Shown piece by piece: positions 1 through 25,691 of a DNA stretch of 32,451 nucleotides; within the stretch, counting starts at the first letter, position 1, and each line of letters opens with the position of its first letter. This DNA comes from an uncultured Gammaproteobacteria bacterium (GTDB lineage Bacteria; Pseudomonadota; Gammaproteobacteria; GCA-002705445; GCA-002716945), in the NCBI GenBank assembly GCA_913045115.1, contig CAJWPJ010000011.1:1-32451 (forward strand), given 5' to 3'. The notes beneath the pieces were generated by a model. The model was not told the DNA's origin. It ran no database searches and saw nothing but the letters and a program-made list of their open reading frames with translations. A program made the position numbers and the translations under genes.

Positions 1-958
1 CAAGCGAACCACCCTTTAAAGCAGAGGCTTTATCTTGTGAGAGTTCTCCTGCATATTTTGAAAAATCTTCTCCGCTCATAACATTTTTTTTAACTTGAAA
101 TAATTTTTCTTTTATTTGTTCTGAGCCCTCCATCGGATTTGTTGTCAATAGTATATGGCTGACTTTATACTCATCGACTAGGATATTGCTATCAATAACT
201 TCTAGCATGGTATAACCTTTACCAGTTTTAAAAACACTACTAAATCTACTCTCATCAAGCATCTGAAGGTTGTTTTGATAAATATCAGGAAGTTTGTATA
301 TCTGAGCATCCTCTAGTAAAGTTGTTTGTATTTCGTACGCTGGATATTTTTTTTTCTGTTCTTCTATGTCCGAAACTTTTAGACCTTCGAGAATTATTTT
401 AGCTTGACTCAAGTTTAATTTGTCAGATTTATTGAGTATGATATGTTCTTTTATTTTCATCCTTCCATCTACTTCGGGTATCTGACTATTCTTCAGAAAA
501 CTTATTATTTCTTCTTCTGATACATATGCTCTATTGGTGAACTGTGTTCTAAATACCTCTTGCCTTTTAATGTTCCTTCTTAATTTATCAAGATATTTTG
601 TATAGCTTAAGTTTTGATTTTCTACTACGTCCTTCAATTGAAGCACAGTAAGCCCTTGGCTACTTGCAATAGCCTTGAGTTGATTTTGGAGATCTATATC
701 CGATACCCTTATTCCCATTCTGGAGCTTGCCTGATCTAAAAGAGATTCCTCAATTAGTTGGTCTAGGACATCATTTTTCAGTTTAGCTAGTTGAATCCTA
801 CTAAGATTATCAGCCTTTATCTCCCTCATTTTCTCATTCAACTCTGATTGCAGGATCACCCTGTCATTTACAATAACTACGACACTATCCTCTAGGGATT
901 GACTTGTATCTATGAACATCATTACTGACATTACAGCTGCAATTTTCAACTTATTCAT
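1..958 (-). CDS. surA: Periplasmic chaperone/prolyl isomerase SurA, partial (C-terminus beyond the window)
   Basis: SurA escorts unfolded outer-membrane proteins, LptD above all, across the periplasm to the BAM complex. The gene starts at 958 (ATG) and runs off the left edge, leaving about 319 of the usual ~430 residues. Visible in order: a signal peptide (MNKLKIAAVMSVMMF, ending near residue 20); the SurA N-domain with the usual VNDRVILQSEL stretch; a degenerate first parvulin domain at about 163-255; and the start of the second parvulin domain at about 262 onwards (VSHILL, then LSQDKAS and KGGSL), which resembles the second, catalytic-type parvulin domain of E. coli SurA. The start overlaps the end of lptD by 8 bases, so the two are translationally coupled in one operon, as in many gammaproteobacteria. 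Identity is firm; only the missing end is uncertain. Confidence 0.93.
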   Translation of the reverse strand, partial: MNKLKIAAVMSVMMFIDTSQSLEDSVVVIVNDRVILQSELNEKMREIKADNLSRIQLAKLKNDVLDQLIEESLLDQASSRMGIRVSDIDLQNQLKAIASSQGLTVLQLKDVVENQNLSYTKYLDKLRRNIKRQEVFRTQFTNRAYVSEEEIISFLKNSQIPEVDGRMKIKEHIILNKSDKLNLSQAKIILEGLKVSDIEEQKKKYPAYEIQTTLLEDAQIYKLPDIYQNNLQMLDESRFSSVFKTGKGYTMLEVIDSNILVDEYKVSHILLTTNPMEGSEQIKEKLFQVKKNVMSGEDFSKYAGELSQDKASALKGGSL

Positions 959-3641
959 AATCTGTCCTATCTTTATATCCAGCAATACCTCTTCTAAGTA
1001 ATGACGCAGTCTTATTGTTTGTAGTTGTTAAGCCTTTTGGCAAGAACTCAAAGAATAGTGCATTGTCTTTTTTTGCTCCCGTCCAGTAATCTCTGGCAAC
1101 AACCTTGAGAGAGTAGCAACAACCATCATACTCTAGTCCAATCATGGTATCGATTAAATCCTCGACATCTCTTCTGTTATTGGAGAAGGAATAATTATAT
1201 TTACCCACCAAAGAAAATTGATTGTTGAAAGAATATACCCCGGATAAATCAATTTCCTCACCATTGCCTCTAAAAAATCTATAATCCGCATTAAATAACC
1301 TATTTCTTGAGCCAGTGTTATCGTTGTATCTGTATCTAATATTATTTCGCATTCCATGGCCTTTGTGTGGATTGAAGACTGATCCTATAGATAACTGAGT
1401 TTTTTCACTCAACTTAGCACTCATTAAACCGATGATGTTTGAAGCATCAGAATGAGATTTTGTATTACTTGTTAGATGAACATCTCGATCATCAAAATAT
1501 ATTATTTGACCAATCGTACCGGTAAATAATTCATCACCTGAATTTTCATCTATGATCCTATGCGTTAAAGCTAGAGAAACTTGTTTTGCATCATTTATTC
1601 TATCTTCTCCATAAAATTTATTTTCAGATAGTAAAGAATATTTGAACTCTTTAAGACCAGTATCAAAAATAGGATTATTATCCTGATTTCCCACAGGAAT
1701 GTATAATAAGTAGGCCTCAGGCTCTAAGGTATAGAGCTTGTCTCCAATATATTTATCAAAATAGAGTTTACCTCGGACACTAGCTATAGCAGTAGTTTTT
1801 GATTCTGAATCAGCTGTATTATTATCTAAATTATAATCAACGTATCTTATTCCAAACTTAGGAGTTAATTCCCAACCATCTGAGATAAATGACATTTGTA
1901 CGCTCGGATAAAGTAAGTATCTTGTACCTTCCACTATCGAAGCATCTTTATGCTCAAACTTATCAATGCTTGCTTTTATGTTGTAGCCAAAAGGAGAGCC
2001 ACTTTTACTAGTGTAACCTACTTTTAATGAGGGAACTGTTTGGTATTGCTCTGTAATTCCAGTTTGAGATGGCTGGTATGTCAATGTCGACAGCTCATAG
2101 TTCATAATATTATTTTCGGTATGCTTCTCACCAAAAAGTCTAATTTCTCTCTTGACACTTGATTGACTAGATGTGCTCAATGAGTTTCCAAAATCGTCAA
2201 AATAGTCAAGATCAGATATGCGGCTGTAGGATATATCGCTATTGAGGATTGATCCAATCATATCTCTACTACCTGAAGTGAGCGTATTATACAAAACTCT
2301 TTTATCGTCAATTTTATAAAGATAACGATCTTTACCAAACTCATCATCATTTTCAAGATATGTGAAATTTAATAAACTTGAGGATTTATCTCTACCCAAA
2401 TATCTAAATTCATTATCAAATAGGATTCCTCTATCACTGAGAGATGTAATCTCAACGGTAGCATCATAATTCTCTGATAGATTAAAATAATATGGAATAG
2501 AGAGTGATGTCCCACTATCACCTTCAGAGCCAAATGATGGGGTCAATATTCCTGATTGTCGTTTGTCTGTTAGAGGATAGCTTATAAATGGCGAGTAAAA
2601 AATTGGGATGTTTTTATACTTTAGTAGCATGTTATATGAGTGCCCTCTCTCGTCTTGATTAAAGAGTTTTGTTGACGTAGTTGTAAGCTCCCAGTCGGGA
2701 TCATTTATATTACATGCTGTATAAGTTGCATCCTCTAGATGAATATCTTTATTTTTTTTAAATGTGATAGTTCTAGATTTTCCTGCTCCAATTTTTTTTG
2801 ACCTATAGTATTCTGCTTCTGTAAATTTAATATCACTATCTAAACCTCGGTACTGTGCTGTTTGTGAATGTACCGTAATTTCATTATTAAAATATTTTAC
2901 GTTTCCGGATGCGGAAACATTTTTAGTATTTGGGTAATACTTTATACTATCTGCTTTTAGCATATCTTGCTGCCTTTCAGCTTCTGCATTGCCTTCTGCT
3001 AGAAATTCATCATCAGTTTGGCTTTGCCTATCGGCTCTAATTTCAAGTGTAGATTCATCTGCAACGGCAAGCGTCTTAACGTCCTCGAAAGTTTCAAAAT
3101 TATTTAATGCACATAGCCCTAAATCTTGATCATCCTGCTCATTGAGGGAAATGGTGATAATTTTTTCTCTGACTTTGTTATTATCTTTCTTCGTGGCTTG
3201 AATAATTGGAGCATCTGAAATATCGAGTTGGGCATTCTCCATCTGCCCAAGTTTCTTGTAAAGCTTATTGTTTACTATGATCTCGAATACTCTCTCATTT
3301 TTAAATATTATATTAATACTTTTAACTTCTTTTCTATCTAAATTATTATAATGATAGTAACTCCAACGATCCTTATTGAAAGGGCTTGATGAGGGTTTTC
3401 CTAGGAGGTATTTTACTTGCTCCCTTGTTAAACCGATTTCTAGACGGTCAAAGTTCTTATCATTAAGAAGGCGACCTTGCTCGAGAGGAATAATATAAGG
3501 CTTAATTTCATAATCTGAAAGACTTTCTCTTACGTCTTTTTGAATCTCACTGAAAATATCCATTACACCAGAATGAGCTGTAGGTGTAATTATTAGAGAG
3601 ATTATTGCAAGCGATTTTTTTATATGATTATTTAGAATCAT
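951..3641 (-). CDS. lptD: LPS-assembly protein LptD with an N-terminal BamE (SmpA/OmlA)-like domain
   Basis: LptD is the outer-membrane barrel that inserts lipopolysaccharide. This 896-residue protein is about 110 residues longer than E. coli LptD. Order: signal peptide without a lipobox cysteine (to about residue 24); a BamE-like domain at about 47-121, with LEQG, then LEIGLTREQVKYLLGKP, then PFNKDRWSYY and a final strand FKNERVF; a linker; a periplasmic OstA/LptA-like domain at about 195-290; then the barrel. All four cysteines expected of LptD are present: C177, C310 and the CC pair C841-C842, so the normal disulfide assembly should be possible. I chose ATG 3641 rather than the TTG just before it (3644). 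A TATAAT box lies 7 bases upstream of the ATG and there is no clear ribosome site. The frame runs unbroken from the BamE part into the LptD part. LptD identity is very firm and the domain assignment firm; the role of the fusion is unknown. Confidence 0.93.
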   Translation of the reverse strand: MILNNHIKKSLAIISLIITPTAHSGVMDIFSEIQKDVRESLSDYEIKPYIIPLEQGRLLNDKNFDRLEIGLTREQVKYLLGKPSSSPFNKDRWSYYHYNNLDRKEVKSINIIFKNERVFEIIVNNKLYKKLGQMENAQLDISDAPIIQATKKDNNKVREKIITISLNEQDDQDLGLCALNNFETFEDVKTLAVADESTLEIRADRQSQTDDEFLAEGNAEAERQQDMLKADSIKYYPNTKNVSASGNVKYFNNEITVHSQTAQYRGLDSDIKFTEAEYYRSKKIGAGKSRTITFKKNKDIHLEDATYTACNINDPDWELTTTSTKLFNQDERGHSYNMLLKYKNIPIFYSPFISYPLTDKRQSGILTPSFGSEGDSGTSLSIPYYFNLSENYDATVEITSLSDRGILFDNEFRYLGRDKSSSLLNFTYLENDDEFGKDRYLYKIDDKRVLYNTLTSGSRDMIGSILNSDISYSRISDLDYFDDFGNSLSTSSQSSVKREIRLFGEKHTENNIMNYELSTLTYQPSQTGITEQYQTVPSLKVGYTSKSGSPFGYNIKASIDKFEHKDASIVEGTRYLLYPSVQMSFISDGWELTPKFGIRYVDYNLDNNTADSESKTTAIASVRGKLYFDKYIGDKLYTLEPEAYLLYIPVGNQDNNPIFDTGLKEFKYSLLSENKFYGEDRINDAKQVSLALTHRIIDENSGDELFTGTIGQIIYFDDRDVHLTSNTKSHSDASNIIGLMSAKLSEKTQLSIGSVFNPHKGHGMRNNIRYRYNDNTGSRNRLFNADYRFFRGNGEEIDLSGVYSFNNQFSLVGKYNYSFSNNRRDVEDLIDTMIGLEYDGCCYSLKVVARDYWTGAKKDNALFFEFLPKGLTTTNNKTASLLRRGIAGYKDRTDYE

Positions 3642-3683: not shown

Positions 3684-4325
3684 TCAGTTTTTAATAATAG
3701 AAATAATCTCATCAGTCAACCTTTGGGGGCCATCCTCGCCTCCAATGATTCTATGCAAGACACCTTTTTTTTTATAGAAATTAATTATTGGCTCAGTCTG
3801 TTCAGAATAGACTTTTAACCTATTAGAGACAGTTTCCTCGTTATCATCGACTCTCTTTACAAAAACCCCGTCGCCGCACTTATCACCCTCTCTGAAATCT
3901 GAGAAAAACTCATTTTCTATTTTTCCACATGTATCACATGTTATTCTTCCCACACACCTTTTGATTATCAAATCTGTTGGCACATCAATGAGAAAGACAT
4001 ATTCTATCGACAGCTCAAGACTTTTTAATAGTTCATCTAAGCTAGAGGCTTGTGAAAGATTTCTTGGAAAACCATCGAGTATAAAACCATTTTCGCATTC
4101 GCTAGAACTAATTTTTTTTGATACCAATTGCAAAACAATGTCATCGCTAACAAATTGTCCTGAGGACATAATCCTTTTAAGCTCTTGACCCATCTCGGAC
4201 CCTGATGAGGTTTCAGCTCGAAGCAAATCTCCAGTAGATATTTGGGGGATATTGAATTTGTTTTCAATATTTTTTGATTGTGTCCCCTTGCCTGAACCTG
4301 GCGCCCCTAAGAAAAGTATATTCAT
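3684..4325 (-). CDS. adk: Adenylate kinase
   Basis: Catalyses ATP + AMP = 2 ADP in the cytoplasm. The 213 residues are a normal full length. The P-loop GAPGSGKGT lies at 8-16, followed by the AMP-binding STGDLLR (30-36) and DGFPRN (84-89). The LID domain carries C130, C133 and C150 at the spacing of zinc-containing adenylate kinases. The fourth ligand position (153) is Gly, with Asp at 152, so the zinc site looks incomplete or shifted. The gene lies 20 bases downstream of hppA on the same strand and 42 bases before lptD, so hppA-adk probably form one transcript. Start ATG 4325 fits the family N-terminus exactly. Confidence 0.97.
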   Translation of the reverse strand: MNILFLGAPGSGKGTQSKNIENKFNIPQISTGDLLRAETSSGSEMGQELKRIMSSGQFVSDDIVLQLVSKKISSSECENGFILDGFPRNLSQASSLDELLKSLELSIEYVFLIDVPTDLIIKRCVGRITCDTCGKIENEFFSDFREGDKCGDGVFVKRVDDNEETVSNRLKVYSEQTEPIINFYKKKGVLHRIIGGEDGPQRLTDEIISIIKN

Positions 4326-4345: not shown

Positions 4346-6361
4346 TTATAGTAATGGCGCAATCACAAGACTTACAATAGCCATCACATTAATCAATATA
4401 TTCATCGATGGCCCAGAAGTATCTTTGAGCGGATCGCCGACTGTGTCACCTACAACTGCGGCTTTGTGCGTATCTGACCCTTTGCCACCAAAATTACCTT
4501 TTTCTACAAATTTTTTTGCATTATCCCAAGCCCCACCAGAGTTTGACATTGTGAGAGCCAATAATATACAACTTACAAGCCCTCCACCCAAAAGACCTCC
4601 AAGCATTTCTGGGCCAAATAAAAATCCAACCAGTACGGGTGAAAATACTGCAATTGCTCCTGGCATAACCATTTTCTTCAAAGCAGCCCCAGTTGCAATC
4701 TCCACGCACTTTTGATTATCTGGTTTGCCTGTTCCTTCAAGTAAACCAGGTATTTCTCTAAATTGTCTCCTAATTTCGTTTATCATGCTGTACGCAGCGT
4801 CTCCAACAGCTGTGATTGTTAAAGACCCTACAAGAAACGGAATCATACCTCCAATAAATAGTCCAATTAGCACGTTTGTGTCAGTCAAGAGTAATTGAAT
4901 TGGCTCTTGTCTGCTGTGGTTTACCTCTTGAACAAACGCTGTAATAATCGCTAAAGCAGCCAATGCAGCCGCTCCTATAGCAAAGCCTTTACCTATTGCA
5001 GCAGTTGTATTTCCAACTTCATCTAAACTATCAGTAATTTTTCTAGTACTTTCACCAAGGGCGCCCATCTCGGCAATACCGCCCGCATTATCAGCAATTG
5101 GACCATACGCATCAATTGCCATTGTGATCCCAACTGTTGCTAACATACCCACAGCCGCAATACCCACACCATAAAGTCCAGCAAAATGATTTGATAAGAA
5201 GATAATTATAACTAACGTAAGGACAGGAACTACAACAGATTGAAGACCAATAGACAAGCCGGTTGTAATCACAGTAGCAGAACCAGTTTGTCCTTGTTCA
5301 GCAATTTTTCTTACCGGGGCACCACCTGTATAATATTCTGTTACAAGCCCAATGATTATGCCCCCGATGGTTCCCGATAGAACTGCATACCATGCATTTG
5401 CTGTTAAACCCAGTGATACGATTACAAAATATGCTAAGACTATAAATGATATTGCTGAGGCGAACGTTCCTCCTCTGAGAGAATTTGCAATGTTTGTCTC
5501 GTCACTGCCATCCCTTGATGCAAGAACCCTTATAATAACTATTCCTATAATTGAACAGAATAATCCAAGCGATGCAAGAGCGAGCGGAAGAGACATTAGG
5601 GTTTCTCTGGAGCCTAATTGAATTAAATCTGCTTCTACCATAGTAGATGCAATCGCTATAGTTGCTATTATTGCACCGCAGTATGATTCAAATATATCAG
5701 ATCCCATACCTGCGACATCACCTACATTGTCACCAACATTGTCCGCTATAACTCCGGGGTTTCTTGGATCATCTTCAGGGATATCTTTCTCAACTTTACC
5801 AACAAGGTCTGCTCCAACATCAGCAGACTTTGTGAAAATACCACCACCAACTCTTGAGAATAGAGCAACCGTCGATGCCCCCATACCAAATCCATGAATT
5901 GTTGAAGCAGTCTCAGGGTCTGAACCATACAAGATGTATAAGAGACCCAAACCTAATAATCCCATAGCAGCTACAGTAAGACCCATTATTGAACCACCAA
6001 AAAATGCAACTGATAAACTATCACTCACCCCCGAGTTCTGCGCAGCTGTGGCAGTTCTAACATTCGCTTTAGTTGCTGTGTACATGCCAATAAAGCCAGT
6101 TATTGACGAGCTTAGTGCGCCGACTATGAATGCTATAGTGCTACTTAATCCTAATCCTATATATATTCCAAATATTAGTATCAATGAGAACATGAACAGT
6201 ATGGAATACTCTTTCTTCATGAAAGCCATGGCGCCGAGATGTATTTCGTCTGAGATATCTGTTAAGTTTTTATCACCGGCAGGATATTTTTTCACTTGCA
6301 CATAAAGCAAATATGACGCTAAGAGCCCTGTAAATCCAAGTATTATAGGTACAAAATTCAT
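4346..6361 (-). CDS. hppA: Membrane-bound ion-pumping pyrophosphatase, K+-dependent type
   Basis: Hydrolyses pyrophosphate and uses the energy to pump H+ or Na+ across the cytoplasmic membrane. The 671 residues and many hydrophobic segments fit the family. Signature acidic motifs are present: [11 protein letters not shown] at 181-191, DNVGDNVGD at 207-215, and [13 protein letters not shown] at 638-650. The [10 protein letters not shown] motif (450-459) has Ala454 and Gly457 where K+-independent enzymes have Lys and Thr, so this is the K+-dependent class. Glu225 in DIFESY sits where Na+-pumping members carry their key glutamate, so Na+ transport is possible but not proven. It is divergent from mrdA with 61 bases between. 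On its strand a GGTGA ribosome site precedes the ATG, and a TATTAT box overlaps the mrdA -10 box. Confidence 0.96.
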
Positions 6362-12963: not shown

Positions 12964-13743
12964 ATGAAAAAAGATAAAACTCAGGTTTCAGATTCTAAAA
13001 GAGGTTTTTTAAAAGGATTAGGCGCAGTAGCTGCAGCAACACCAATAATCGGATCTATGTTTGGTTCTGATGATGCACAAGCCGCAAAAGCCGATCATGA
13101 GATGTATCTTCGTGGTACGTACTTTGAATCTTGTACATGCGATACTATTTGTCCATGTCTTCTTCTTTTAGACCCAACTCAGGGTTATTGTAAAGCTTTC
13201 TTAACTTGGAACATCGAGCAAGGTCACGTTGGTAATGTTGACGTTAGCGGTTTAAATGTTTCTATGTGGCTAAATGCACCTCAAAACCTTTTGAAAGGAC
13301 AATTTGAGATGGCAGTTTATATTGATGAACGTGCTAACAATGCACAATTCAATGCACTAAGAGAGGCTTATCATGGCGCTCATGGTGGACACTTAGGTGT
13401 AATCGCAAGTCTTGGTAAAGGGGCTGAAGGTGCACCTCGCGAATATCTACCAACTAAAAGAGCTAAAATTACTTATATGGTTAATTCTCCATCAAGACAC
13501 GTGATTGTTGAGGGAATAGCTGAAAATAAAATGGAACAACTTGCAGGAGCTGCTGGTCGTCCTGTAGTAGTACATGACACACCGTTAGCAGTTGCTCCAC
13601 CATATCCTATTACCGTGAGCAAAGCATCAAAGCTTACTTACAATGATCATGGCATAAGCCATTCATGGGAAGGTGGAAATGGCTTGAGCTCTCCATTCGT
13701 ATATCGTGATGGCGCTAACAAGCAACAAGCAATAGAAGTTTAA
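12964..13743 (+). CDS. DUF1326 domain protein, exported, probable metal-binding
   Basis: A 259-residue protein of the DUF1326 family, whose biochemical role is not established. The N-terminus SKRGFLKGLGAVAAA looks like a twin-arginine type signal with Lys in place of the first Arg, ending near AQA (residue 40). The mature part starts with the family's cysteine cluster, FESCTCDTICPCLL (C57, C59, C63, C65), with C76 nearby. Such a CxC...CxC arrangement could bind copper or another soft metal. DUF1326 genes are often found beside DUF2182 membrane proteins, as here. The gene has its own promoter with an overlapping palindrome, and a strong terminator follows 17 bases after the stop. Family assignment is firm; metal binding is inference. 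Confidence 0.87.
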   Translation: MKKDKTQVSDSKRGFLKGLGAVAAATPIIGSMFGSDDAQAAKADHEMYLRGTYFESCTCDTICPCLLLLDPTQGYCKAFLTWNIEQGHVGNVDVSGLNVSMWLNAPQNLLKGQFEMAVYIDERANNAQFNALREAYHGAHGGHLGVIASLGKGAEGAPREYLPTKRAKITYMVNSPSRHVIVEGIAENKMEQLAGAAGRPVVVHDTPLAVAPPYPITVSKASKLTYNDHGISHSWEGGNGLSSPFVYRDGANKQQAIEV

Positions 13744-13760
13744 CTTCAATATTGAACGAT

Positions 13761-13790
13761 GGCCTGCTTCCATGCAGGCCATTTTTTTTT
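13761..13790 (+). terminator. Rho-independent terminator between DUF1326 and DUF2182 genes
   Basis: The arms GGCCTGC (13761-13767) and GCAGGCC (13774-13780) form a GC-rich 7-base-pair stem with a 6-base loop, followed by A and nine T residues. It lies between two genes that appear functionally paired. Read-through past it would give lower expression of the membrane protein than of DUF1326. It also shows that the DUF2182 coding region starts after it, at 13797. Confidence 0.88.
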
Positions 13791-13796
13791 AATCTT

Positions 13797-14699
13797 ATGA
13801 ATGACAGAGTAATACAAGCACCCCTAAAAGATAGAATGATTGTTTATATTGGAGTAGCAATAGTACTTCTATTCTCATGGCTTTATATTCTTGGAATGGG
13901 TTGGCACATGAATACAATTCCATTTATCAACAACACAACTATGAGTATGGACATGCCTTCTGATTCAATGGATATGAAAGATAATGGCATGGATATGAAT
14001 AAACAGGAAATGGAAGGCATGACTATGAATCAGGAGTCAGGTATGATTACGAAGATTTTGACATGGATGCCTCCAATGGGAAATATGTGGGCTTTAACTG
14101 ATTTCTTTTTACTATTCATGATGTGGGCAGTAATGATGATAGCAATGATGACTCCGTCAATACTTCCAATGCTCATGTTGTATACAACTCTAAATGCTAG
14201 AAAAAAAGCACATGGGCAAGAATCGGCATCCACGATGATTCTTCTTGCAGGTTATTTGTCAAGCTGGGTACTTTTTAGTTTATTCATCACTTTCCCCCAA
14301 TATTTTTTACACACTAATGGGTTTTTGAATATGATGATGGAACCCATACATGCCTATCTTGCAGCTTTTGTTCTTGTCCTGGCAGGAATTTACCAATTTA
14401 CACCATACAAAGATGCTTGTTTAAATGTTTGCCAATCACCTTTAAGCTTCTTAACTAATAACTGGCAAGATGGTAATTTTGGCGCATTTATCATTGGTTA
14501 TAAACATGGCTTTTATTGCGTTGGCTGTTGCTGGGCACTAATGCTTACGCTTTTTGCGCTTGGTGTAATGAATATCCTTTGGGTCATAGTGCTAACCATC
14601 TTTGTTTTATTTGAGAAAGTTTCTTATAACTATCCTCTAACCTACAGAAGAGTAGTAGGCGCCTTTTTGATTATTTGGGGTCTTGTTCTAGTTGCCTAA
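13797..14699 (+). CDS. DUF2182 integral membrane protein with a methionine-rich loop
   Basis: A 300-residue DUF2182 membrane protein, a family described as predicted metal-binding. Hydrophobic segments lie at about 14-34, 100-130, 145-165, 184-202, 228-262 and 262-300. The family signature HGFYCVGCCW is at 237-246, and CLNVC lies at 208-212. Between the first and second membrane segments is a loop with 11 Met in residues 49-83, spaced as MxM and MDM, typical of extracytoplasmic Cu(I)-handling sequences; membrane segments 107-127 are also Met-rich. I set the start at ATG 13797 because the frame open from TTG 13752 passes through a terminator hairpin. The 3' end overlaps murU tail-to-tail by 29 bases. 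Copper handling is inference. Confidence 0.87.
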   Translation: MNDRVIQAPLKDRMIVYIGVAIVLLFSWLYILGMGWHMNTIPFINNTTMSMDMPSDSMDMKDNGMDMNKQEMEGMTMNQESGMITKILTWMPPMGNMWALTDFFLLFMMWAVMMIAMMTPSILPMLMLYTTLNARKKAHGQESASTMILLAGYLSSWVLFSLFITFPQYFLHTNGFLNMMMEPIHAYLAAFVLVLAGIYQFTPYKDACLNVCQSPLSFLTNNWQDGNFGAFIIGYKHGFYCVGCCWALMLTLFALGVMNILWVIVLTIFVLFEKVSYNYPLTYRRVVGAFLIIWGLVLVA

Positions 14700-16689: not shown

Positions 16690-18894
16690 ATGCTTTCTTA
16701 CTTTCACTTTAAAGTTATCAATATAATTAATTACTTTTCAGCACTTTTTTTGATTATTGTAAGCATCCCTGCTTATGCGGAGCGTCTAGATGATCAAAAT
16801 GTCACCATCAACTCCGGTGTAACACAATCACATACAAGTGACACCATTCTTTTAGACAGCGGTGGACCATACACAATTAATAATTCAGGGAATATTGTAT
16901 CTACTGACGGGCATACAATTAGAATTAAAGTACAAACAACCTTAACGAACTCAGGTTTAATTGATTCCAACGGTTCAACACAAACTAGTCTCTATACAGT
17001 TTTTTACCAAAGCGCTTCTGGAACCAGCTCTCTAAACAACAGCGGAACAATTCTCTCAGATTATTCAGGTAAAAATGCTGCAGGCATCCAAGTGGATGGT
17101 TCAATTTTATCAAGTATTGTCAACACAGCAACGGGTACCATTGAAGCGAAGAATACCACAAATATTGCAAACGGTATTAGAATACAATCTTCTTCGGGCA
17201 GTTATGTTGCTGACATCACAAATGCTGGAACAATATCGGCATCTTCATCTGGAGCAGCATATGGTATCACTTCACTTGGTGCAGGAGATGGGTTCAATAC
17301 TGTGACCAATTCAGGAACAATCTCTGCTATAGGTGGTGCAAATAGGTCTTCAGATACTACCAGTTATGGTATAGCTATGTGGGGTACAACAAACATCTAC
17401 GGATCTGTTATCAATAGCGGGACTATTCAAGCTAGTACCACTGAGGGTAGTGGTAAAGGTAGTGTTGGTATTCGTCAAGTAGGTACCCTTACTACTCTAA
17501 ATAACTCCGGTACAATATCAGGTAATAAATACGGTGTTAGAAACACTGGAACAATCACCGACTTTACAAATACAGGAACAATTACTGGTACGAGTGAATA
17601 TAGTATTGAGAACTCTGATACTGGAGTTATAACAAATCTTTATAACTCACAAAATAACTTAACCTTTAACGGAAACCTTCCAACGAATTATTCAGTTATT
17701 ATAAATAGCGCCTCGGATTATGGGAAAATAACCTTTTCATCACCATCAGGTTCATTAAATTTTGCTATTCATAGTTCTTCATCACTTACAGCAGGATCTT
17801 ACTCAGCTGTTATGTCAGGGATTACTGCATCAAATATTTCTTCTGTTACTACTGGATCTATTGAAAGAGGTGGCGAAATACATCGTTATAGTCTAACTAA
17901 CAGCACCGGGACACAATGGGATTTAGTTATTAATTCTCTTGCTTCTGCAACAGATTGCTCACTGAATTCATCTTTGCCTGGCTGTCAAAAAACTGATGAT
18001 ATTTGTAAAACTTTAGAGGTCACAATGAATCGAATGACCCAAGATCAAGGTTATTTTGCACACATGAATACCTACGACTGTGATGTGTTCGGAGATGACG
18101 GTTACTGTGTATCCATTGGAGCAAGGAGAACAAAAATTACAAATCCTGTGAGTACCAGCTATAGCAGTGTTGTTACTTTTGGTAAAAAAGAAACACCAAC
18201 TTTTAGATGGTCTGTGTTTACTCATTTTAATCACACACTAGATACTCCCTCTAACTTTAGTCTTAAAGATAAAGTGCCATTAGTTGGAGCACTTGCAGTT
18301 TGGAATCAATATTCTGATAACTCAGGGTTACAAATAAAAGTAGGGAATACTTACTCAAAAAAAACATCCCGAATCACAAGAGCACAATCAGGAGTATCTG
18401 AAGAAGCCACGGGTGATACAGTTGTGAGCGCTGAGTCTTATCTTGTTGAAGCAAGATATAACATTACTAAGTCTAACCGTACTAAATATTCTCCTTATAT
18501 TGCATTGAGAAATTCTGTTAAAAAACAAAATGGTTATACTGAAAAATCTGCAGAATATCCTGTCACCTATAATGATATTATAGATAAATCAAATACAATT
18601 ATTGTTGGTCTCAAATATGAAAAAGATATTTCTGATATTATTTTAAAAGGTAGCGCAGGGTTAGAACATGACTTTTATCACACAGTTGATCGACTTGCGC
18701 CCACGGCAGCTGTAAGTATTACCACTGTTAATATAAATGAAAGCTTTGATAAAACGCGACCAGTTTTCTCAATTGGATTGGATAAATTCTTCTCACCAAC
18801 CAGAAGACTGAGCGCAACTTACCAATATCAAAAGCTACCTTATAGAAATATGACAGAAAAAAACTTTTACCTGTATTATACAATTGGATTTTGA
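16690..18894 (+). CDS. Autotransporter (type Va) with beta-helix passenger
   Basis: A 734-residue secreted protein that threads its own passenger through an outer-membrane barrel. A long signal peptide ends at AYA (residue 30). The passenger (about 31-420) is rich in Ser, Thr, Asn and Gly and has at least ten degenerate repeats of the NSGTI type (NNSGNI, TNSGLI, NNSGTI, TNAGTI, INSGTI, TNTGTI), the rungs of a beta-helix. A linker at about 422-474 holds five Cys. The barrel domain spans about 475-734 and ends in the usual aromatic signature (YTIGF). No protease motif is seen, so adhesion or surface coating is more likely than enzymatic activity. The gene is flanked by a whole mazG-like gene and by a fragment of another mazG, which suggests it arrived or was exchanged by recombination. 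Confidence 0.9.
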   Translation: MLSYFHFKVINIINYFSALFLIIVSIPAYAERLDDQNVTINSGVTQSHTSDTILLDSGGPYTINNSGNIVSTDGHTIRIKVQTTLTNSGLIDSNGSTQTSLYTVFYQSASGTSSLNNSGTILSDYSGKNAAGIQVDGSILSSIVNTATGTIEAKNTTNIANGIRIQSSSGSYVADITNAGTISASSSGAAYGITSLGAGDGFNTVTNSGTISAIGGANRSSDTTSYGIAMWGTTNIYGSVINSGTIQASTTEGSGKGSVGIRQVGTLTTLNNSGTISGNKYGVRNTGTITDFTNTGTITGTSEYSIENSDTGVITNLYNSQNNLTFNGNLPTNYSVIINSASDYGKITFSSPSGSLNFAIHSSSSLTAGSYSAVMSGITASNISSVTTGSIERGGEIHRYSLTNSTGTQWDLVINSLASATDCSLNSSLPGCQKTDDICKTLEVTMNRMTQDQGYFAHMNTYDCDVFGDDGYCVSIGARRTKITNPVSTSYSSVVTFGKKETPTFRWSVFTHFNHTLDTPSNFSLKDKVPLVGALAVWNQYSDNSGLQIKVGNTYSKKTSRITRAQSGVSEEATGDTVVSAESYLVEARYNITKSNRTKYSPYIALRNSVKKQNGYTEKSAEYPVTYNDIIDKSNTIIVGLKYEKDISDIILKGSAGLEHDFYHTVDRLAPTAAVSITTVNINESFDKTRPVFSIGLDKFFSPTRRLSATYQYQKLPYRNMTEKNFYLYYTIGF

Positions 18895-24453: not shown

Positions 24454-25041
24454 CTAATATAATTCTATTGACGCTAAATCAATCTGAGCTTTAAACTCTC
24501 TACCAATTGCCACAATGCCAATAGTTTTAATGTCTTGAGAAGACACACTAGAGGGTTGATAGAAATTTGATTTTTTAAATGTTGTAAATGGAAGTTCGAT
24601 AGTTGTCCATTCTTCAGTTGCCTGAAAAGCTGATTCGTAATATTGCCATGGTAAAAACAAGTATTTTGTACGTATGTGGACTGTATACTCATTATTATTT
24701 CCTCTTACTCTGAGGCGCACCCCTTTGAAACTTTTACCTTCCGGGTGATCTTCTATTTTTGTTCTAAATTGTATGAAACCACCGTTGTTCTCAAGAGATA
24801 AATCTCCAGTCATTCGGTAGAAATAGGTATCACTTTCTTTTTTGAATTCTAGGGAGCCCTCGGATATCCCCCCCATGACTTTATCTGTAACAAAACACCA
24901 CTTAGCATTACCGCTCTCACAGAATTCTTCATCTGGTGTTCCAGATTGATTTTTCATATCATCAACAATCATTTTATCAGCCATAGAATAATTACCTATA
25001 AAAAATGTTATCACTAGAAAAGCTATATGTTTAATTTTCAT
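24454..25041 (-). CDS. Secreted CIA30-domain (complex I intermediate-associated 30) protein
   Basis: A 195-residue protein with a signal peptide (MKIKHIAFLVITFFIGNYSMA) followed by a CIA30 domain, a galactose-binding-like beta sandwich. Recognisable stretches are TDKVMGGISEGSLEF, FRTKI, FKGVRLRVRG and the late ELPFTTFKKS. In eukaryotes CIA30 helps complex I assembly; in bacteria the domain's role is not known, and this copy would be periplasmic. I chose ATG 25041 because it forms an ATGA overlap with the HAD gene upstream and begins the signal peptide exactly; a frame-open codon five residues earlier adds only MCEFP. It is probably co-transcribed with the HAD gene. Confidence 0.83.
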   Translation of the reverse strand: MKIKHIAFLVITFFIGNYSMADKMIVDDMKNQSGTPDEEFCESGNAKWCFVTDKVMGGISEGSLEFKKESDTYFYRMTGDLSLENNGGFIQFRTKIEDHPEGKSFKGVRLRVRGNNNEYTVHIRTKYLFLPWQYYESAFQATEEWTTIELPFTTFKKSNFYQPSSVSSQDIKTIGIVAIGREFKAQIDLASIELY

Positions 25042-25691
25042 CGGAAACTCACACACTCCCAGTTTTTGTTTTTACCTAACTCTTTTAGTTTATCATCACC
25101 ATCTACAATTACTGGTTTTCTTACTTTCTCTAAGAGAGGTAGATCATTGAATGAATCACTATAAAAAGATGCTTGAGATAAATCAAAATTATTGTCATTA
25201 ACCCACTTAGTCACTTTATTAAGCTTACCGCCTCGAAAACATGGCGATCCTACAACTCGCCCGGTAAATGCATTATCTTTTATCTCAAATTCTGTCGCAA
25301 TCAAAACTGATACATCGAATATGTCTGCGATCGGTCTCGTAACAAAATCATTAGTGGCAGTTGCAATAATAACTTTTTTCCCCTCTGAGTGAGCTTTCTC
25401 GATAAGCTCTTTACCAGTTTTTGTAACAATAGGTCTAATTTTCTCTTCGATAAACTGCTCTCTAAGTTTTAATAGTTTTGTCATGTCATTAGCTATGAGA
25501 GGTTTCAAACAAAATGAGAGAAATCCATCTATGTCTAAACTGCCTTCGTAATAGTTATTGTAGAAACGCTCACTTTCATTGAGATATGATTCATCAACAA
25601 TTTGTTGTTCAGATAAGAAAATTCCCCAATTTCTATCACTGTCTCCTGCAAGAAGCGTATTGTCTAAATCAAATATTAAAAGTTCATTCAT
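25038..25691 (-). CDS. HAD-superfamily phosphatase, subfamily IB (SerB-like)
   Basis: A 217-residue cytoplasmic hydrolase. Motif I is FDLDNTLL at 8-15 with the nucleophilic Asp, motif II is IATATND near 110, a conserved Lys lies in GGKLNKV, and motif III is YSDSFNDLPLL. The helical cap between motifs I and II resembles that of phosphoserine phosphatase, but the substrate is unknown. A HAD-IB gene next to rppH is also found in Pseudomonas, so this slot is conserved. It is divergent from rppH with a 61-base AT-rich gap, and ATGA-coupled to the CIA30 gene. Confidence 0.85.
   Translation of the reverse strand: MNELLIFDLDNTLLAGDSDRNWGIFLSEQQIVDESYLNESERFYNNYYEGSLDIDGFLSFCLKPLIANDMTKLLKLREQFIEEKIRPIVTKTGKELIEKAHSEGKKVIIATATNDFVTRPIADIFDVSVLIATEFEIKDNAFTGRVVGSPCFRGGKLNKVTKWVNDNNFDLSQASFYSDSFNDLPLLEKVRKPVIVDGDDKLKELGKNKNWECVSFR

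Follow-up and report, generated by a model that had tools for sequence, protein, structure and literature searches.

We found that the outer-membrane components BamE and LptD, two known protein families, are encoded as one single protein, and that this fusion is real is near certain. BamE usually exists on its own, as a lipid-anchored helper of the outer-membrane-protein insertion machine, and LptD inserts lipopolysaccharide into the same membrane. The fusion gene lies in the window, i.e. the whole analysed DNA stretch of 32,451 nucleotides, which constitutes contig C11 in a genome of 1.05 Mb and 49 contigs with an estimated completeness of 96.65%. A single open frame on the minus strand (954–3641), beginning with an ATG at 3641 and terminated by a stop codon at 951–953, encodes 896 residues in the order signal peptide, BamE domain, linker and complete LptD. 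The architecture is genuine, fixed in its lineage and apparently undescribed. Our literature search, with preprints and most subscription journals outside its scope, yielded no paper describing a BamE–LptD fusion, a negative that is not proof of novelty. The fusion gene, its parts and its neighbours are located as follows:

954–3641, minus strand: bamE-lptD fusion gene, 896 aa, stop codon at 951–953
3567–3641, minus strand: signal peptide region, residues 1–25, no lipobox (hydrophobic N-terminus by inspection; cysteine-free upstream of C177)
3273–3503, minus strand: BamE domain, residues 47–123 (Pfam PF04355, PDB sequence matches, model and Foldseek)
3114–3272, minus strand: linker, residues 124–176 (alignment of 15 fusions, model pLDDT)
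2607–3113, minus strand: LptD periplasmic β-taco/jellyroll part with C177 and C310, residues 177–345
954–2606, minus strand: LptD barrel with C841–C842, residues 346–896 (PF04453; Foldseek match to solved LptD)
2–952, minus strand: surA, next gene downstream, cut by the contig end (Pfam SurA_N and Rotamase; conserved order)
3684–4325, minus strand: adk, next gene upstream, same strand (inspection; conserved order)
4346–6361, minus strand: hppA, membrane pyrophosphatase, upstream of adk (inspection; conserved order)

Elsewhere in the window, the plus strand encodes an autotransporter-type protein of 734 aa with a PF03797 barrel and a repetitive passenger (16690–18891), within what is a very small genome, as well as a likely pair (12964–14696) made up of a DUF1326 protein and, after it, a PpoB2-type membrane protein designated a copper chaperone. 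On the minus strand, a CIA30-domain protein with weaker carbohydrate-binding domain matches (24454–25056) adjoins a HAD-like hydrolase identified by inspection.

The LptD part was matched by Pfam PF04453 at residues 463–816 (E=7.6e-53; 180.6 bits versus a cut-off of 22.4), and the alignment of the family profile to full-length LptD proteins of solved structure starts at about position 198. The N-terminal OstA-type domain PF03968 scored 14.9 bits, just under its cut-off of 20.4. The cysteines C177, C310, C841 and C842, the last two being adjacent, are all canonical and invariant across the 15 aligned fusions. The closest solved structures to the full-length model in a Foldseek search were LptD; this model has a mean pLDDT of 60.9, too weak for positioning the BamE domain relative to LptD.

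For the BamE domain, PF04355 matched residues 57–121 (E=1.4e-10; 41.2 bits versus a cut-off of 23.2). Compared with PDB sequences, the window segment matched BamE/OmlA 2pxg over residues of about 49–119 (E=7.5e-10), E. coli BamE 5d0o at E=5.6e-5 as well as a large number of BamE chains at about 3e-5, and the family profile reached 3.1e-18 for 2pxg and 2.7e-11 for E. coli BamE. The model of the domain shows helices and strands as in BamE with a pLDDT of about 90–95 across most of the core. The top 19 Foldseek matches of this domain model in the PDB were all BamE, with moderate query-normalised TM-scores of 0.43–0.56, partly because the modelled piece has low-confidence ends.

The positions conserved in standalone BamEs are mostly retained (Q34, G35, G49, G60, P62, F68, W73, Y75 and F95 in E. 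coli numbering), the clear exceptions being N36 and M50. The latter is replaced by leucine in all fusions. Within the QGN motif, Q and G are present in 15/15 fusions and N in 1/15; N36 is thus lost from nearly all fusions, whereas 20 of the 21 standalone BamEs have it. The window protein also deviates at the D and Y that most BamEs share at E. coli positions 74 and 77, and these changes together with the loss of N36 suggest that one surface of the domain may have changed. The domain score is lower in the window's own genus than in other genera. Judged by membership, the fusion belongs with LptD, to which a domain has been added. Strictly speaking it does not qualify as a BamE, as it lacks the lipoprotein nature and reaches 22.7 bits with the NCBIfam BamE equivalog NF008585, below the cut-off of 93.

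None of the 15 fusions contains a lipobox, compared to all 21 standalone BamEs (19 recognised by pattern and two, L003 and L025, by eye), and nearly all BamB, BamC, BamD and LptE proteins examined from the same order carry one. The window protein has no lipobox because no cysteine precedes C177. In four sister fusions a cysteine is found within the signal peptide, unconserved and outside any lipobox. The preliminary description had read this protein as a BamE domain without lipobox at residues 47–121, followed by a complete LptD with all four disulfide cysteines. The missing lipobox (first cysteine C177) and the complete LptD (PF04453 match and C177, C310, C841 and C842) are borne out, and the profile search that it proposed gave the significant PF04355 match reported above. 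The domain itself stands by Pfam, PDB and fold searches, with an extent of rather about 47–123 and a QGN motif devoid of its N.

Between the two parts, the linker comprises about 53 residues in the window protein and 53–56 aa across the 15 fusions, with pLDDT values mostly below 50. Mean pairwise identity among these fusions was 55% for the BamE part, 60% for the LptD parts and 34% for the linker. The dN/dS of the BamE part was 0.035–0.17 in pairs with usable dS, close to that of the barrel and lower than that of the linker in most pairs; the closest pair gave 0.26, with few changes counted. Judged by these ratios, the BamE part is under purifying selection, as is the barrel.

We compared the window with the other members of its order, uncultured marine gammaproteobacteria represented by 25 genomes from six genera and one family in the set. 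BamE and LptD matches were found in the same 24 of the 25 genomes, and in 22 of these both lie within one frame of 860–937 codons. The remaining genome, G008, has neither match, which fits a gap. In G007 the fusion is split by a frameshift, and in G011 by a single in-frame stop. At the G007 locus (L076), hppA, adk, the fusion and surA contain numerous frameshifts, which suggests an assembly of low sequence quality, and the broken adk, surA and hppA neighbours make a sequencing error likely. A second BamE match in G021 is cut at a contig end; this locus encodes query residues 47–235, spanning the junction, and by its sequence is a partial second copy of the fusion. The gene order hppA-adk-[bamE-lptD]-surA is identical wherever the contigs reach, and the genome records comprise metagenome bins and, judged by their AG-/AH- names, single-cell assemblies. 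We therefore reject the explanation that two genes were joined through misassembly or an overlooked stop as having a practically negligible chance: the split frames of G007 and G011 speak for it, but independent assemblies from six genera share the frame and the gene order, and in G007 the neighbouring genes are frameshifted too. Thus, the same architecture, for which a search of related genomes had been suggested, recurs in 24/25 genomes of six genera, and close relatives with separate bamE and lptD genes, named beforehand as the case against the fusion, were not found in the order. The simplest history is one fusion event in the ancestor of the order.

Outside the order, no further fusion appeared among the matches listed in two genome samples. 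In a class sample of 369 genomes, the listed matches that cover the fusion profile from its start all come from four genomes belonging to this order, and all others listed begin at or beyond profile position 161, the start of LptD proper. These matches extend to E=7.0e-115, so that a close fusion would appear among them and a very diverged one might not; most genomes of the sample gave a second, separate match. In a phylum sample of 398 genomes, all matches listed except the window begin at a position of at least 179. A second fusion considered in genome G376 was rejected, since the BamE there is an ordinary lipoprotein that has a start and a lipobox of its own. The locus in question (L109, 1331–4069) is a 912-codon chance open frame in GC-rich DNA that runs into the standalone bamE.

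A separate bamE was not detected by profile in the 25 genomes of the order, where, the G021 fragment aside, all BamE matches come from the fusion. The best of these genomes are 97–100% complete, making it unlikely that a bamE was missed in every one of them, although a very diverged BamE could evade the profile. Separate genes were found for BamA in 23, BamD in 24, BamC in 24 and LptE in 22 of the 25 genomes, and a BamB-like protein, under the curated cut-off, in 21. With BamA, BamB-like, BamC and BamD proteins present, BAM is otherwise ordinary. The earlier suggestion that the fused domain replaces LptE-type help is unsupported, since a separate lptE is retained in 22/25 genomes including the window's own, where its lipobox reads LISC. 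The adjoining surA had also been taken to strengthen an assembly theme; surA does adjoin the fusion, but lptD-surA is the ordinary gammaproteobacterial gene order and the fusion occupies the place of lptD, so this link adds little.

We tentatively favour, with slightly more doubt than confidence, a reading in cis, in which the tethered BamE domain docks on BAM while its own LptD folds. The signal peptide would export the BamE domain, the flexible linker would keep it tethered to the periplasmic part of LptD, and during assembly of this same LptD the domain would dock on BamA POTRA-5 and BamD, at the site that BamE occupies in E. coli. Each LptD would bring a BamAD-stabilising subunit along for its own slow folding, and other clients would be folded mostly by a BamABCD complex. 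BamE is non-essential in E. coli and aids outer-membrane proteins in general, so a role for LptD only would be a narrowing. In E. coli, BamE is in contact with both BamA POTRA-5 and BamD and has a stabilising effect on the two, and LptD assembly takes about 20 minutes (PMC13067283). In an lptM mutant, LptDE lingering on BAM co-purifies with BamD and BamE (PMC10567701), and BamE is also present in the structure solved for BAM together with LptD at a late stage (PDB 9p1u).

Both of these latter observations support the reading in cis, as do the confinement of BamE to the LptD frame in 24/25 genomes with the other BAM parts present, the mostly kept conserved positions and the low dN/dS of the BamE part. 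The loss of N36 and the departures at positions 74 and 77 may count against it, as does the narrowing of the general role that BamE has in E. coli; for the E. coli BamE contact residues, our literature search found no published paper. Conservation of the BamE domain fits other functions equally, and the recruitment of BamA/BamD or a BAM–Lpt contact site, as proposed from the sequence, would both be plausible.

Coupling in trans seems unlikely to us. Here the domain of mature, inserted LptD would reach BAM and act as BamE for all clients, keeping the sites of LPS and OMP insertion close to each other. No BamE other than the fusion was detected in the genome, and the linker of 53–56 aa, whose low model confidence is what a flexible stretch would show, could span a distance; such coupling would require lasting proximity of BAM and LptD, and an LptD copy number similar to that of BAM. 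Also rather unlikely is a reading in which the only BamE of the cell is a permanent part of every LPS translocon in the order and is used on BAM in trans, with OMP insertion physically and numerically tied to the LPS insertion sites. We regard as distinctly unlikely a new structural role, in which the domain no longer works with BAM and instead serves to stabilise the periplasmic part of LptD, or to anchor the translocon to SurA, lipid or some other component of the envelope. Other BamE core positions are retained and no standalone BamE was found that could serve BAM, although the lost N36 and lipid anchor would agree with such a role, as would the proposed contact of BamE with SurA PPIase-2 (PMC13067283). 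Improbable, finally, is a polyprotein whose linker undergoes periplasmic cleavage, so that BamE is released without a lipid and joins BAM as a normal subunit: the linker is long, weakly conserved and modelled with low confidence, but the alignment reveals no conserved cleavage site, a domain released in this way would be missing the lipid anchor found in 21/21 standalone BamEs, and the amount of BamE would be set by lptD.

Compared with known systems, the fusion shares with LptD (PF04453) the periplasmic β-taco and barrel, the four cysteines, the lptD-surA order and a separate lptE, but adds the BamE domain and linker ahead of the first cysteine. It resembles BamE/SmpA/OmlA (PF04355) in sequence, fold and most conserved positions and differs in being fused to LptD rather than a separate lipoprotein, in lacking a lipobox and in the reduction of QGN to QG. 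In the E. coli assembly intermediate 9p1u, BamE and LptD likewise meet in one complex during assembly, there as separate chains and here as a single one. LptM (YifL) is also a small accessory aiding LptD assembly at BAM (PMC10567701), but is a separate lipoprotein and not a BamE domain.

The exact job of BamE is unsettled. Its retention in this lineage only within LptD suggests that helping or meeting LptD is the role that selection could not drop. The fusion, a natural single-chain link between BAM and Lpt, makes the purpose of BamE a testable question and raises that of why an assembly helper was joined to one slow-folding client.
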